A stretch of 64,000 bases of DNA from Halorubellus sp. JP-L1 (GTDB taxonomy: Archaea > Halobacteriota > Halobacteria > Halobacteriales > Natrialbaceae), in assembly GCF_011440375.1 (NCBI RefSeq), contig NZ_JAAOIR010000001.1, positions 1,240,001 to 1,304,000 of the forward strand, in the 5' to 3' direction. Under the pieces are notes generated by a model. The model did not search any database. It saw only the letters and a list, made by a program, of their open reading frames with translations, and was not told the DNA's origin. The number at the start of each line of letters is the position of its first letter. Position 1 is the first letter of the stretch. The position numbers and the translations under genes are program-made. Shown one piece after another: positions 8,234 through 59,614 of the stretch.

Positions 8234-8304
8234 GGGACCGTGGGGTAGTGGTATCCTCTGCGGATGGGGTCCGTAGGACCCGAGTTCGACTCTCGGCGGT
8301 CCCA
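8234..8304 (+). tRNA. tRNA-Pro (anticodon GGG)
   Basis: The 71-base gene folds as a cloverleaf. The acceptor GGGACCG pairs with CGGTCCC, the anticodon stem TGCGG/CCGTA encloses the loop ATGGGGT (anticodon GGG at 8266-8268), the variable loop has four bases, and the T-arm CCGAG/CTCGG carries TTCGACT. The discriminator base is A and no CCA is encoded. A dense set of accessory genes starts just after it, so it is the likely integration site for the island that runs to about 15.6 kb. Confidence 0.95.
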
Positions 8305-8521
8305 CTCGATATTCTGTAACTCTCCAACAACGGAGAGTAGATGCACCCGAGACGGGCGAGAATCCAGTTCTCGGGTTCGTTACCTGTTCGCTGAACGATT
8401 AGCATGGCGTGAGCGCCGCGTGCCGAGGTGGTCCGCGTGAGCGCCGACCAGCCCGGCGTCGACGCCGAGTACCAGACCCAGAGAGAACACCCGCAAACCC
8501 AGTCTCTGGTACTACAGTCTT
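8305..8521. other. Noncoding boundary between tRNA-Pro and the island, with hairpins
   Basis: No gene is seen. Two hairpins follow the tRNA: ACTCTCC/GGAGAGT at 8319-8338, and CCCGAGA...TCTCGGG at about 8347-8376. Further on, GTACCAGA (8469-8476) and TCTGGTAC (8505-8512) form an inverted repeat just downstream of the leftward gene's stop codon, where it could end transcription. Confidence 0.5.
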
Positions 8522-9307
8522 TTACTGGCCTTCGACGAGGCGATTCATCGCCGTGGGTGTAAGGTAGATATGCCGTCCCGCGCGCTCGACGGTGCTCCGC
8601 CCGGCTTCCGCTTCGAAGAGCGCGGCGAGGTCACCGATGAAGGAGGCGGCGCGGGATTGCTTGAGTTCGACGCGGACGGCCCAGGGGCCGTCGTTCTCGA
8701 GTTCGACGCTCCTGGTGAGGAGCCAGACCCCGAGGAAGTCGCGTCGCATCGACGTCGTCGCGAAGTTGAGGTACTCGGGGAGGTCAAGGAGTTGGGTTTC
8801 GTCGCGACCGCGTGGGACGCCGGCGGCGACGAGCGCGCGACCGAGCAGCTGGGCGTTCCCGCCTGGGCGGATCTCGGTGCCGGTGCTATCGTAGTCCTGA
8901 ATGCGCGACTCGAAGCCGAGCGTGTCGAGGTGGGCCTGAATCTCTGCTCGATCCTCCTTCTTGTCGGTGAAGGCGGGTGCGTAGTCGTTGGCGACGACGT
9001 AGCCGGCGGCGATGGCGCGGGCGGCGAGGTGGTTGAGGGCGCGGGTTTCGGGACTCGGCATGTCGGCCATCCAGCCGCGCTCGTGCATCTCGTCGAGGGC
9101 GGTGACGGCGTCGGGCTTGGAGCCGTTGACCCATTCGCGGAGTCGCGATCGTGGCTGGTCGAGCGCCTTCGAGATCTGGTACGGGCTCTCGTCGGGGTGC
9201 TCGGTGCGGTAGTCCTGGTACTCGCGGTAGTCGTCGACGAGCGTTTGCGCGCTGGGATTGGTGCGGTCGTAGGTGGAGATGAAGTCAAGCTCGTGTAGGA
9301 GTTGCAT
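8522..9307 (-). CDS. HTH protein with a degenerate LAGLIDADG-like fold
   Basis: A 261-residue protein. Residues 41-62 (SPYQISKALDQPRSRLREWV) look like a helix-turn-helix. Residues 92-103 (LNHLAARAIAAG) and 189-201 (RRDFLGVWLLTRS) sit where the two LAGLIDADG helices of homing endonucleases occur. The surrounding LLGRALVAAGVPRGR and PEYL segments, and the later VELKQSRAASFI, also follow that family. The catalytic acids are replaced, so it is probably a DNA-binding regulator without nuclease activity. The relation is my inference from motif order. The ATG at 9307 is chosen because TATAAG on the other strand lies 26-31 bases upstream; an in-frame GTG lies at 9385. Confidence 0.55.
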   Translation of the reverse strand: MQLLHELDFISTYDRTNPSAQTLVDDYREYQDYRTEHPDESPYQISKALDQPRSRLREWVNGSKPDAVTALDEMHERGWMADMPSPETRALNHLAARAIAAGYVVANDYAPAFTDKKEDRAEIQAHLDTLGFESRIQDYDSTGTEIRPGGNAQLLGRALVAAGVPRGRDETQLLDLPEYLNFATTSMRRDFLGVWLLTRSVELENDGPWAVRVELKQSRAASFIGDLAALFEAEAGRSTVERAGRHIYLTPTAMNRLVEGQ

Positions 9308-11647: not shown

Positions 11648-11956
11648 TCACAAGTCGATGCTGGCCATCGTCGCGTTGATGTTCTCCTCGATGGAGGCAG
11701 CGAGGTACGGTTCGATCGCATCGTAACTTGACCACCCGCCGAGGGCCATGACGATTCGCGGACTCACGTTCTCCTCGACGAGCAGGTGGTTCGCCCAGCA
11801 TCGACGGAGGTCGTGCGTGCTCACGCGCCGGTAGTCGTCGTCGCCGGTCTCGTCGGCAGCTTGGGCGGCGGCGGCGTCGACCCAGTTCTGTAGCGTGCGC
11901 TTGGACCTGTCGACGATGGGGTCGCGGTCGCAGATCTCGTTCACGTCGGCGTTCAC
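11648..11956 (-). pseudogene. Truncated tyrosine recombinase (integrase C-terminal part)
   Basis: About 102 residues match the end of haloarchaeal integrases. THDLRRCWA carries the HxLR catalytic pair, MALGGWSS holds the Trp at the second His position, and EPYL carries the tyrosine nucleophile. The first catalytic arginine and the N-terminal core-binding domain are missing. The frame continues upstream to about 12010 before a stop codon, with sequence unlike an integrase. This is therefore a remnant of the enzyme that inserted the island, and probably inactive. Confidence 0.8.
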
Positions 11957-32355: not shown

Positions 32356-33201
32356 TTACCTCGTTAGGGTGAGGCAGGCGAGAGTTGCGAACATCGCCTC
32401 TTCGGTTCGCACCACCTCGCTGCCCTGATTCGGAATCGAGTTCACCCAGAGGTCGAACCCGGGTCGGTTTCCGGATTCGACTGCGTCGGTACCCACGGCG
32501 TCGGCGTCGACGCCGAGGATCGGCGGCAGCCCTCTCTCGGGCGCTCCGAAGACGACGGTCGTTCCGTCCGTCTGAATGCGCCCGGCGAGCGTGTCCAGCC
32601 TGGACACGGAGAGCTCCTCTCCGTGTCGCGAGGCGGCGATCGTCACGCCCGCGTCCTCACGGCCGAGTGCTGCCGAGATGGTCGATTGCGAGACGTCGAG
32701 CCCCGGAAGGGGGTCGTCGACGAGTCGCGCACGAACCGGTCTTCTCGAAGAGACCCTGACGGTGACGCGCTCTCCCTCAGCCACCTCCATCGCCGGAGGG
32801 ACGTTGAGGGAGATCGGGTGTTGCAGTCCGCAATTGACCCGGACGCGCCCTTCAGGTCCGACCTCGGTCACGATTCCCTGTCTTAACGACCCCGAACCGT
32901 TTGATTCGGAGCCGGTCTGTGACGTGGCGAGTAGCGGCGGCAGGACGCCCGCGTACTCCAGTTCGGGCCGCTTGCCCCAGGCCTCCTTTCGGAGGTAGGG
33001 GGGCGTTGCGGCGTATTCGAGTACGGTGCGTACGAACCCGCCGCCCCGTTTCCGTTCGCCGTCTTCGTCGGGGAAGACGACGAGTCGGTCGGCCCGGAAG
33101 ACGGTCGCCGCGCGGGCGACGTAACCGAGTTTGCGAGTTGCCTCGCGTTTGTCCTCGGCTTCCCGGGTGAGGGACGACGGCACGAGCACGCTGGTGGTCA
33201 T
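32356..33201 (-). CDS. SPOUT-class RNA methyltransferase (COG2106, putative uridine-N3 methyltransferase)
   Basis: A 281-residue protein leading the S10 operon. STRKLGYVARAATVFRADR-type residues at the start (KREATRKLGYVARAATVFRA) and TPPYLRKEAWGKRPELEYAG place it in the family related to human C9orf114/SPOUT1. An OB-like insert (TEVGPEGRVRVNCGLQHPIS) divides the Rossmann part, and the C-terminal knot region includes TVVFGAPERGLPPILG. It probably methylates rRNA; its place before rpl3 is conserved in archaea. Confidence 0.85.
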   Translation of the reverse strand: MTTSVLVPSSLTREAEDKREATRKLGYVARAATVFRADRLVVFPDEDGERKRGGGFVRTVLEYAATPPYLRKEAWGKRPELEYAGVLPPLLATSQTGSESNGSGSLRQGIVTEVGPEGRVRVNCGLQHPISLNVPPAMEVAEGERVTVRVSSRRPVRARLVDDPLPGLDVSQSTISAALGREDAGVTIAASRHGEELSVSRLDTLAGRIQTDGTTVVFGAPERGLPPILGVDADAVGTDAVESGNRPGFDLWVNSIPNQGSEVVRTEEAMFATLACLTLTR

Positions 33202-33700: not shown

Positions 33701-33771
33701 GCGCAGATAGTGTAGTGGTATCACGTGACCTTGCCATGGTCACAACCTGGGTTCAAATCCCAGTCTGCGCA
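33701..33771 (+). tRNA. tRNA-Gly (anticodon GCC)
   Basis: A 71-base cloverleaf: acceptor GCGCAGA/TCTGCGC, D-arm GTGT/ATCAC, anticodon stem TGACC/GGTCA around TTGCCAT (GCC at 33733-33735), T-arm CTGGG/CCCAG around TTCAAAT, discriminator A, no encoded CCA. Its last 22 bases reappear exactly at 33905-33926. Confidence 0.96.
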
Positions 33772-34105
33772 CTTCTCTCGACGACAACGCCGACGAGCAC
33801 CGCGTAGCGGTGCGAGTCACGCACGTCGTCGAGGAAGTCGGAATCTGGATTTGAATCCTACCAGTCGCGCGCAGTGAACGAAGTGAACGAGCAAGTCTGG
33901 TTTCGGTTCAAATCCCAGTCTGCGCATTTTCGCACCTTCAACGATAACGAGCGTAGCGAGTCGTCGGAGATGTCGAAATCCGGAAGCTAAAATTTGAGTG
34001 GGGGCACGCAGCCGGGCGAGGCGAGGACCGTGCGACCGAGTTCAAGTCCCGGTCTGGGTCTCGACGGACATCGCCGACGAGCATCGCGTAGCGGTGCGAG
34101 TCAGG
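33771..34105 (+). repeat. Tandem T-arm copies and hairpins downstream of tRNA-Gly
   Basis: In order: a long hairpin with arms 33771-33785 and 33825-33838; a degenerate T-arm copy with stem CTGG/CCAG (33845-33864); an exact copy of the tRNA's last 22 bases (33905-33926); a second, weaker hairpin with the GAGCGTAGCGA core; a third T-arm-like copy (about 34036-34054); and a second copy of the hairpin loop (about 34058-34101) closely matching 33777-33819. The array ends at the copper protein's stop codon. tRNA-Ile has the same layout. Confidence 0.75.
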
Positions 34106-35138
34106 CGCTGGTCGTCGTTCCGGTCTCGGTGCCTTCGTCATCGTCGCCGTCGTCGCCCTCGCCTTCACCGCCGCCGTCGCCCTCGCCGCCGTCCTCGCCT
34201 TCACCGCCGCCGTCGCCGGACTGGTTCGCCTCGAGGTCGGACCACGAGACGGTGCCTTCTTCGACGATGGCTTCGGGCTCGAGCGCGGGGTCGGTGAGCG
34301 TGACTCGCGCGAGTCCGACGGGGCCGGCTCTCGGTTCGGGGAGTGCTTCGGGGTCGCTGGTCTCGAACTCGGCGCTGGTCTCGTCGCCGACGACGATCCG
34401 CATCGCCATCCCGAACGCCTCGTGGGGCGAGCAGATGATGTCGTAGACGCCGGGCGTGTCGAACGACAGCAGCCACGTGTCCGGTGTGGGGCCGGCCTGC
34501 TCGTCGGCGGTCGCTGCGCCGGTGGTCGCGGTGGCGTCTTCGGCCATCGTCGCGTTCGCGTCGGTCGTCGTGGCGTTCGCGGTAGTCGTCGTGGCGTTCG
34601 CGTTAGTCGTCGTGGCGTCCTCGGTCGCGGTCGTCGTCTCGTCCATCTCGGTCGCGGTGGTGGCGTTCGTCGGTTCGCCCTCGCCGCCGTCACCGCCGCC
34701 CTCCGCGACGGGCGGCGCTGGTGGTTCGATCATGTCACCGGGGATCGTGTCGGGATCGAACCCGAGGAGCGGCGAGGAGAACGCTTCGACGCCGGTCGGG
34801 ACGCGCCGACGCATGCCGAACGCGGGATGCATGCCGACGACGTTGTGGTCCGGCGTCGTGAACCGCCATCGGACGACGTCTCCCGGCTGGACGTGGAGGC
34901 CGGTGGGTTCGTAGAAGAAGTCCGCTGGGCGGTCTGGATTCGTCGATGGGACGCTGATGAGCGTCTGGACGTCGTGGACGGCCTCGGTGTGCTCGTCGAT
35001 GCCGGCGACTGCGTCGCCTTCGTCGCCAGCGCCGAGCGTCGCCCACCCGAGCGCGCCGGCGGCCGTCCCGGCGCCGAGTGCTTTCATGACGGTGCGTCGT
35101 GCGGTACCGAACCGGTCTGTCGGATTGTCTTGGGACAT
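34101..35138 (-). CDS. Exported cupredoxin (plastocyanin/halocyanin-like copper protein)
   Basis: A 345-residue protein with a twin-arginine signal (RRTVMKALGAG, residues 14-24). The type-1 copper fold is split: GDVVRWRFTTPDHNVVGMHP carries the first His ligand, and VYDIICSPHEAFGMAMRI carries Cys, His and Met. Between them lies an insertion of about 85 residues, almost entirely Thr, Asn, Ala, Asp and Gly with repeated NAT sequons, so the loop is probably glycosylated. The C-terminal 45 residues are Gly/Glu/Asp repeats. It likely carries electrons outside the membrane. Confidence 0.88.
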   Translation of the reverse strand: MSQDNPTDRFGTARRTVMKALGAGTAAGALGWATLGAGDEGDAVAGIDEHTEAVHDVQTLISVPSTNPDRPADFFYEPTGLHVQPGDVVRWRFTTPDHNVVGMHPAFGMRRRVPTGVEAFSSPLLGFDPDTIPGDMIEPPAPPVAEGGGDGGEGEPTNATTATEMDETTTATEDATTTNANATTTTANATTTDANATMAEDATATTGAATADEQAGPTPDTWLLSFDTPGVYDIICSPHEAFGMAMRIVVGDETSAEFETSDPEALPEPRAGPVGLARVTLTDPALEPEAIVEEGTVSWSDLEANQSGDGGGEGEDGGEGDGGGEGEGDDGDDDEGTETGTTTSA

Positions 35139-58437: not shown

Positions 58438-59106
58438 ATGGTCGGGTACCTCCGGTACGTCGCGGCGCTACTAGTCATCCCGCTCCTGGACTCAATCGTC
58501 CTGGTGTGGCTGGTGACGTCTGGGACCCTCGGCGGGCTGCAGGCGGTCGCGCTCGTCGTCCTCACCGCGTTGATCGGGATGGTGCTCGTTCGCGCGGAGG
58601 GCCGGCGGACGCTCCGGAAGATCCAGAAGTCGCTCGCGGCCGGGAATCCGCCGACGAACGAGCTGCTGGACGCGGGCCTGCTCATCGCCGCGGGCGCGTT
58701 CCTGCTGACGCCCGGACTGGTGACGGACGCGGTCGGGATCGCGTTGACGCTCCCGCTCTCGCGCATCCCGATCCGGATGGCCCTGAAGAAGTACGTCGTC
58801 GTCCCGTACATCGACGAGCACGCGGCCGGGATGGCGTCCGGGAAGGCGTGGACGTTCGGATTCCCGAACCCCGAGGACGCGTCCTCGGGCGGCGGTGGCG
58901 GGTTCGGCGCGACGTTCGGCGGGAGCTTTGGCACCGGCGGCGACGCTGACGGCGGTCCGTTCGGCGCAGGGAGCGACGGTGACGGCGGTCCGTTCGGCGG
59001 TGGCGCCAGCGAGCGCGCTGAGAGCGACGACACCATCGACCTGGACGAGGACGCGTTCGAGGTCGACGTCGAGGACGTCCACGAGGACGACGAAGACCGA
59101 GACTGA
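58438..59106 (+). CDS. FxsA-family membrane protein
   Basis: A 222-residue membrane protein. Three or four hydrophobic segments (LLVIPLLDSIVLVWLVTSGT, AVALVVLTALIGMVLVRAEG, AGAFLLTPGLVTDAVGIAL) match FxsA, with the conserved LLTPGLVTD. The C-terminal 85 residues are glycine repeats (GGGGGFGATFGGSFGTGGDA) followed by an acidic end. The E. coli relative influences phage exclusion. The ATG at 58438 starts the hydrophobic MVGYLRYVAAL. Confidence 0.82.
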   Translation: MVGYLRYVAALLVIPLLDSIVLVWLVTSGTLGGLQAVALVVLTALIGMVLVRAEGRRTLRKIQKSLAAGNPPTNELLDAGLLIAAGAFLLTPGLVTDAVGIALTLPLSRIPIRMALKKYVVVPYIDEHAAGMASGKAWTFGFPNPEDASSGGGGGFGATFGGSFGTGGDADGGPFGAGSDGDGGPFGGGASERAESDDTIDLDEDAFEVDVEDVHEDDEDRD

Positions 59107-59133
59107 CCCCCACAGAACTGCAAGAAGGAAACC

Positions 59134-59139
59134 CTTTTA
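59134..59139 (+). promoter_or_regulatory. TATA box of tRNA-Ile
   Basis: CTTTTA lies 31-36 bases before the tRNA 5' end, directly after the FxsA gene. Confidence 0.5.
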
Positions 59140-59169
59140 TCCATCACCCATCTACCTCAGACTGGGTTC

Positions 59170-59243
59170 GGGCGGATAGCTCAATTAGGTTGAGCGCCAC
59201 TCTGATAAGGTGGAGGTTCTCGGTTCAAATCCGAGTCTGCCCA
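59170..59243 (+). tRNA. tRNA-Ile (anticodon GAT)
   Basis: A 74-base cloverleaf: acceptor GGGCGGA/TCTGCCC, D-arm GCTC/GAGC, anticodon stem CCACT/GGTGG around CTGATAA (GAT at 59204-59206), variable AGGTT, T-arm CTCGG/CCGAG around TTCAAAT, discriminator A. Its last 24 bases plus the next two are copied exactly at 59364-59389. Confidence 0.96.
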
Positions 59244-59480
59244 CTTCTCCAGCGAACAACGACGTCGAGCGCAGCGAGGCGTCCGTTCGCTGGAGAAGTG
59301 CAATCTCGATTTGAATCCTGTGAGTCGCAGCCCGCGCAGCGGAGCGAGCAGGAACGTCTCACATCGGTTCAAATCCGAGTCTGCCCACTCCTCTGCTGCC
59401 ACAAACGAGGAGCGTAGCGACGAGTGCGGCAGCGGAGAAGTGTAGTATCTGTTCGAGTCTCGTGAGTCGTAGCGCCGAGG
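59243..59480 (+). repeat. Tandem T-arm copies and hairpins downstream of tRNA-Ile
   Basis: In order: a perfect 15-bp hairpin, ACTTCTCCAGCGAAC (59243-59257) with its inverse (59285-59299); a degenerate T-arm with stem CTC/GAG (59305-59324); an exact 26-base copy of the tRNA 3' end (59364-59389); a second hairpin with arms 59387-59403 and 59425-59441 (14 of 17 paired); and another degenerate T-arm copy (59449-59469). Hairpin loops carry GAGCG(C/T)AGCGA. The spacing from tRNA T-arm to exact copy is 144 bases, against 155 at tRNA-Gly. Confidence 0.78.
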
Positions 59481-59614
59481 GTAGCGATGTCAGTGGCTGG
59501 TGGTTCGGGGACGCGACGGACGGTATCCGGCGCGGCGGATTGCCGTGGTGGCTGTTCGTCCGGTCAGTCCGGTGGCTATTGGGGTCGTGAGGACGTCGGA
59601 ATCGCGGTCACGGG

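Follow-up and report, generated by a model that had tools for sequence, protein, structure and literature searches.

Two tRNA genes in the window, the 64,000-nucleotide stretch of DNA analysed here, are each followed directly by a tandem array of short hairpin units (Table 1). The window belongs to a haloarchaeal genome of 3.76 Mb in 5 contigs. The tRNA-Gly array extends over 33701-34060, and the tRNA-Ile 3' end of this genome is identical to that of Halorubellus salinus. Behind tRNA-Pro (window 8234-8560) no intact array was seen, only a possible decayed hairpin unit. Separately, positions 32756-32855 of the minus strand matched the L4-Archaeoglobi ribosomal protein leader (RF03135, 76.6 bits), here in a haloarchaeal genome.

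Table 1. Positions of the tRNA genes and array components in the window
Feature	Position	Strand	Support and remarks
tRNA-Ile (GAT), array anchor	59170-59243	+	ARAGORN; Rfam RF00005, 67.3 bits
Ile unit 1, hairpin A	59244-59298	+	14-bp stem without mismatch, 59244-59257 x 59285-59298; apex CGAGCGCAGCGAG
Ile inverted copy of T-loop and T-stem 3' strand (CTCGATTTGAA), 5' arm of hairpin B outer stem	59305-59315	-	Fit to own tRNA
Ile unit 1, hairpin B, class 1 core GTGAGTCGCAGC...AACGTCTCAC	59304-59379	+	Covariance model R1, 87.7 bits, E 5e-19; covariation
Direct copy of tRNA-Ile 3' end; forms hairpin B 3' arm	59366-59387	+	22/22 identical
Ile unit 2 (decayed), hairpin A	59388-59440	+	
Ile unit 2, decayed remainder (GTTCGAGTCTCGTGAGTCGTAGC)	59441-59490	+	75% identity with unit 1 stretch
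tRNA-Gly (GCC), anchor of the second array	33701-33771	+	ARAGORN; Rfam
Gly unit 1, hairpin A	33772-33837	+	
Gly unit 1, hairpin B	33844-33918	+	Inverted arm CTGGATTTGAA at 33845-33855; R1, 76.8 bits
Direct copy of tRNA-Gly 3' end	33905-33926	+	22/22 identical
Gly unit 2, decayed, class 2 hairpin B	33927-34060	+	Degenerate tail copy at its end, 34038-34060
Remnant hairpin A after the Gly units	34067-34106	+	93% identical to Gly unit 1 hairpin A

Each unit opens with hairpin A, located directly 3' of the tRNA; next come the T-loop and T-stem 3' strand as an inverted copy, hairpin B and, as a direct copy, the tRNA end spanning the T-loop through the discriminator base. In the first Ile unit, hairpin A starts with the base right after the tRNA discriminator. 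The units are non-coding, measure roughly 90-165 bp, begin with a pyrimidine-rich YTTYT run and always lie on the tRNA sense strand. When 76 units from the source genome and related genomes were folded, the inverted T-arm copy paired with the direct copy closing the same unit; the outer stem of hairpin B therefore consists of tRNA sequence, and the inner stem was variable. Hairpin B occurred in three classes, with the cores NNAGTCGCAGC...GNNCGTCTNN (class 1), CAGGGAGC...GCGACCGTGG (class 2) and GAGGTTCTG...CAGGTTCTC (class 3). No complete cloverleaf was detected in the tail copies, as ARAGORN and Rfam called the parent tRNA genes only.

A first-pass annotation of this DNA had assigned the same order of elements to both arrays, which is correct, and a nearly equal spacing of 144 bases. 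The latter distance applies to the direct copy of tRNA-Ile, whereas that of tRNA-Gly lies 155 bases downstream. The GTCGC motif, the GCGCAG-to-GAGCA run and the GAGCGNAGCGAG loops listed as common to both arrays are present in the sequence. Local stems proposed around a degenerate copy (GATTTGAATCCT), CTGG/CCAG at Gly and CTC/GAG at Ile, were rejected, because each mixes one strand of the outer stem with one of the inner stem. The left halves, CTGG and CTC, represent the T-arm 3' strand in inverted copy; their partner is the T-stem strand within the direct copy that follows. The right halves, CCAG and GTGAG, form the 5' strand of the hairpin B inner stem and pair with CTGG and CTCAC further on. 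Of the proposed match between stem and own T-stem, the adaptation of the inverted arm to each tRNA was retained and that of the right-hand strand was not; in other units the 5' strand of the inner stem does not track the tRNA T-stem.

The adaptation to the parent tRNA was quantified for both kinds of copy. Across the 43 tRNA genes of the source genome, copies of the gene's own tail in the 3' flank reached a mean score of 14.1, compared with 9.2 for the tails of other tRNAs, 8.0 for shuffles and 8.4 for 5' flanks, so the tail copies are not due to chance. According to one criterion, 21 of these 43 genes are followed by an array. The fit of the inverted arm to the T-half was scored by alignment; in 56 of 123 units the own T-half came first among 31, with a median rank of 2 and, relative to permuted tRNAs, a z of about 17. 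The initial suggestion of one shared element adjusted to its respective tRNA is thus borne out, the own T-half being the best or nearly the best fit. Covariation was evaluated on alignment A1, comprising 30 class 1 sequences. Changes on both sides occurred in 12 of 22 pairs. Double-changed cells numbered 70 as compared to 15.5 in shuffles, and 95.8% of the cells were paired versus at most 48% when the fold was slid. The stems of hairpin A were nearly perfect whatever their sequence (15 mismatches in 634 paired cells).

The covariance model R1 was used to search haloarchaeal genomes, as the first-pass annotation had recommended, and returned hundreds of loci instead of only the two. Matches were obtained in 277 of 293 genomes of the host order (248 of 255 good genomes), and a phylum-wide search yielded 41 of 43 genomes of this order and 0 of 204 others; match counts per genome are lower bounds (16-19 candidates scored per genome). 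A same-strand tRNA gene lay directly upstream in 29 of the 30 best loci, 6 of the 30 being members of the training set. These tRNAs were of the Ser, Ile, Gly, Leu, Phe, Pro, Arg or Val type. The thirtieth locus (L111, genome G245) is situated inside an array with tRNA-Ala-like tails, whose tail repeat is shorter (CCCGCGAGTCCA; also L368). About half of the tRNA genes and several whole genomes are without units. The element family is real and order-wide.

Related sequences were observed outside this pattern. On haloarchaeal plasmids (L205 1501-1537, L206 1501-1537, L207 1501-1531), longer hairpins close to the ends of genes enclose the core of hairpin B; no tRNA accompanies this core, which stands upstream of a GAGGGCTTTC motif. 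In the source genome (G000), YGARCGNAGYGAR was found at 78 places, as compared to 32 for a reversed control pattern; many of them do not coincide with a listed tRNA gene, as in L369, where three follow one another at intervals of 95 bases. The 3' flanks of L017, L027, L035 and L052 contain yet another type of unit, AGTCCC...GGGACTCCC, whose minihairpin motif is on the other strand and whose tail repeat is shorter, beginning at about position 60.

The strict orientation on the tRNA sense strand, the strong covariation of the stems and the YTTYT run at the unit start would all suit an RNA element that is co-transcribed with the tRNA and acts in 3' trailer processing, termination or control of the tRNA level, with the inverted arm competing between the tRNA T-arm and the downstream decoy. 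The E. coli rtT RNA is indeed annotated in its record as a transcript product. G-U-compatible changes in the outer stem (34 versus 11) appeared to favour RNA as well, but the excess rests on two positions, without which the counts are 10 to 10, and no G-U preference was observed in hairpin A or the inner stems. Selection on RNA by G-U tolerance was not supported. Counts of G-T versus A-C mismatches revealed no clear strand preference, and calculated DNA folding favoured the sense strand only slightly.

The tetraloop favoured in RNA is GNRA. Among 211 triloop hairpins 79 had a C-GNA-G apex on the tRNA-sense strand, whereas the expectation was 6 and the opposite strand had 4, with N unrestricted; the third base of the GNNA loops was a purine in 6 and a pyrimidine in 9 cases (n=15). 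Flanking tandem G-A steps of the type YGAR were present in 94 of 101 cases. GNA and GNNA minihairpins with a free N are extremely stable as DNA (PMC4686876). We take the loops, which are unlike the GNRA loops of RNA, as a pointer to folded single-stranded DNA of the tRNA-sense strand, without this being proof. Loops with third-position pyrimidines and the lack of units at about half of the tRNA genes and in several whole genomes speak against the RNA element, which we consider improbable.

The boundaries of the direct copies were mapped by their agreement with the tRNA, which stayed at chance level through position 51, reached a kappa of 0.75 at position 57 and was at least 0.77 at the informative positions 59 to 71 (position 60 hardly varies). 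The rise between positions 51 and 59 places the exchange point in the 7-nt T-loop, and the direct repeat hence starts within this loop and ends at the discriminator. A repeat from the T-loop to the tRNA end corresponds to the geometry known for integrases that use a loop of the tRNA as overlap (PMC8371274).

The arrays are polarised. First copies resembled the tRNA more closely than second copies (12.57 versus 11.26 of 13; 23 versus 4 arrays; p about 3e-4), and the units nearest the tRNA are the freshest. The source genome and a genome of the same genus (G001) differ by one extra proximal unit at tRNA-Gly and at two other tRNA genes, with the distal, older units in register at all three; the second, decayed Gly unit of the window is the counterpart of the tRNA-proximal unit in G001. 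One tRNA gene differs distally. Among 72 named genomes, close Natrinema and Natrialba species have tRNA-Ile arrays of 0, 1 or 2 units; the order is shuffled between Natrinema species, and deletions are found at short repeats. Ordinary unequal recombination can also be a source of shuffling within arrays.

These order differences and deletions, as well as hairpin A stems that are nearly perfect regardless of sequence, are compatible with an origin as a by-product of replication that does not move. The inverted and direct copies would then arise by template switching at the T-arm hairpin, the perfect stems would be kept by quasi-palindrome correction, and the unit number would change by unequal recombination. 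However, growth is polarised, and the core of hairpin B has a sequence that is conserved throughout the order and from one unrelated tRNA gene to another; copying de novo would not yield such conservation. We regard this origin as unlikely.

The first-pass annotation knew of no named family with this design. The only named counterpart found, and the closest known, is the single repeat array behind one tRNA gene at E. coli tyrT/RtT (RF00391). As in the haloarchaeal units, the RtT repeats stand in tandem directly 3' of the tRNA gene and vary in copy number, each unit closes with a tail copy of the tRNA that begins in the T-loop (A58) and comprises the 3' end, and this copy pairs with an inverted arm of T-stem sequence (GGGGAAGGATGA). 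A CGAGCGCCAGCGAG minihairpin is present as well. Tail copies are located at +156, +334 and +512, and the inverted arm at +59 of each unit. The inverted arm pairing and the C-GCCA-G minihairpin were observed at 1286200-1287900 of E. coli MG1655 (L329); we know of no published mention of either. RtT was present in 4695 of 5426 E. coli genomes at 1 to 14 places. It differs in its restriction to one tRNA gene (loci examined), its 178-bp period and a small tpr gene inside, whereas the haloarchaeal family occupies some 20 tRNA genes in the source genome and each unit is adapted to its tRNA. The RF00391 covariance model recognises the E. coli locus; within 59100-59600 nothing matched it up to an E of 1, and the source genome gave 0 matches. 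The statement on the named family is to be qualified by the shared layout.

Integron attC cassettes, as generally known, share with the units growth at one fixed end and the order of 3' half-site, payload, inverted half-site, structured core and next half-site. Recognition through folding instead of sequence, on a single strand with conserved ends and a variable terminal stem, may be a further parallel; a covarying fold is present in the units. The attC core is GTTRRRY, with RYYYAAC as partner. The units failed the test for this core: in GTTCAAAT / ATTTGAAC, a C replaces the first purine of GTTRRRY. In contrast to integrons, the units have no ORF payload, are anchored at a tRNA T-arm and no IntI was identified. 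Integration scars of the SSV, pNOB8, pT26-2 and SNJ2 types likewise form direct repeats that begin in a loop of the tRNA and reach its 3' end, with a tRNA loop as overlap, but bound kilobase-sized integrase elements instead of tandem non-coding hairpin units of about 90-165 bp. The PATEs, MITEs and small mobile repeats of Haloquadratum are also short, non-coding, palindromic and mobile haloarchaeal elements (PMC3119063). PATEs and small mobile repeats lack target duplications, and none of the three was described as tied to tRNA genes (PMC3119063); the units, unlike PATEs, are bounded by tRNA-end direct repeats of about 20 nt. No description of haloarchaeal tRNA hairpin arrays was found in the open-access papers searched.

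No recombinase gene was present in any unit or beside the two arrays of the window. Phage_integrase (PF00589) had 9 matches in the source genome, of which the window contains only a fragment at 11696-11908. This fragment lies 3.4 kb downstream of tRNA-Pro. An integrase gene in or beside an element was detected in genome G092 only, where a 2.9-kb element in tRNA-Gly contains a Phage_integrase gene (E 1.8e-14) and a DUF7342 gene. The element ends in a 42-bp repeat, from the anticodon loop to the tRNA end, followed on each side by a near-identical unit; to judge from this one case, excision would release a circle with a unit beside the attachment site. At L111 / L368 of genome G245, what by eye looks like the C-terminus of an integrase gene directly adjoins the tRNA-Ala-like array. 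No distal tail copy that would indicate a large integrated element was found in the 20-60 kb searched behind tRNA-Pro, Glu, Thr, Ser and Leu of the source genome. For viral carriage, R1 gave nothing convincing among viral contigs listed by a pattern scan, the pattern being over-general and matching mostly ordinary tRNA genes; blastn of phage records found no element. Integrase counts were somewhat lower in array-free than in sister genomes (nine genomes, confounded).

Both the intact integrase element of G092 with its unit at each end and the apparent integrase gene end in G245 could be taken to mean that the tail copies are attR scars of larger tRNA-integrating elements whose bodies were deleted, the hairpins being DNA that lay beside attachment sites. 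Tail repeats are typical of integration scars (PMC9897764). Such relics would, however, hardly agree with the same compact order of hairpin A, inverted arm and hairpin B behind many kinds of tRNA in many genomes. In addition, the SNJ2-type site comprises 14 nt without a stem-loop (PMC8371274), and the repeat of the G092 element itself begins at the anticodon loop and not at the T-loop. An origin from such scars is possible, on the doubtful side.

We see roughly even chances that the units, accumulating at tRNA ends, are miniature integrative cassettes, non-coding and targeted to the T-loop, or else modules that integrase elements carry along. In favour are the repeat boundary in the T-loop, the polarity of the arrays, the differences of whole proximal units between related genomes, the covarying fold, the DNA-type loops and the element of G092. 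Such cassettes would insert head to tail at the tRNA 3' end by recombination across the T-loop. The target would be the intact T-arm of the tRNA, with the 7-nt loop as exchanged overlap in a reaction of the tyrosine recombinase type. Each insertion would restore the tRNA and displace older units outward, where they would decay. The hairpins may act as folded single-stranded DNA of the tRNA-sense strand, and full-size integrase elements at the same tRNAs may ferry cassettes between genomes beside their attachment site, as the single case of G092 suggests. The gain of a new tRNA's tail together with its inverted arm is not accounted for by the cassettes and counts against them, as do the lack of a recombinase gene in the units and beside the two arrays of the window, the negative results for the viral contigs listed and the phage records, and the alternative source of shuffling in unequal recombination. 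A more far-reaching version is offered tentatively: a gene-free, tRNA-anchored, integron-like system in which a host-encoded or helper recombinase would add hairpin cassettes folded from single-stranded DNA to the T-loops of many tRNA genes, with the newest nearest the tRNA, resulting in chronological arrays throughout the order.

If the cassette reading is true, most haloarchaeal genomes would hold a family of hairpin cassettes, unannotated and specific for the individual tRNA, by which the ends of tRNA loci are rewritten. Many partial tRNA copies would be explained, and entry points of integrative elements would be marked. Through the DNA-type minihairpins, folded single-stranded DNA would be placed in a new natural context in archaea. 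The isolated tyrT/RtT repeats of E. coli would gain a counterpart in another domain, and their origin would become testable.
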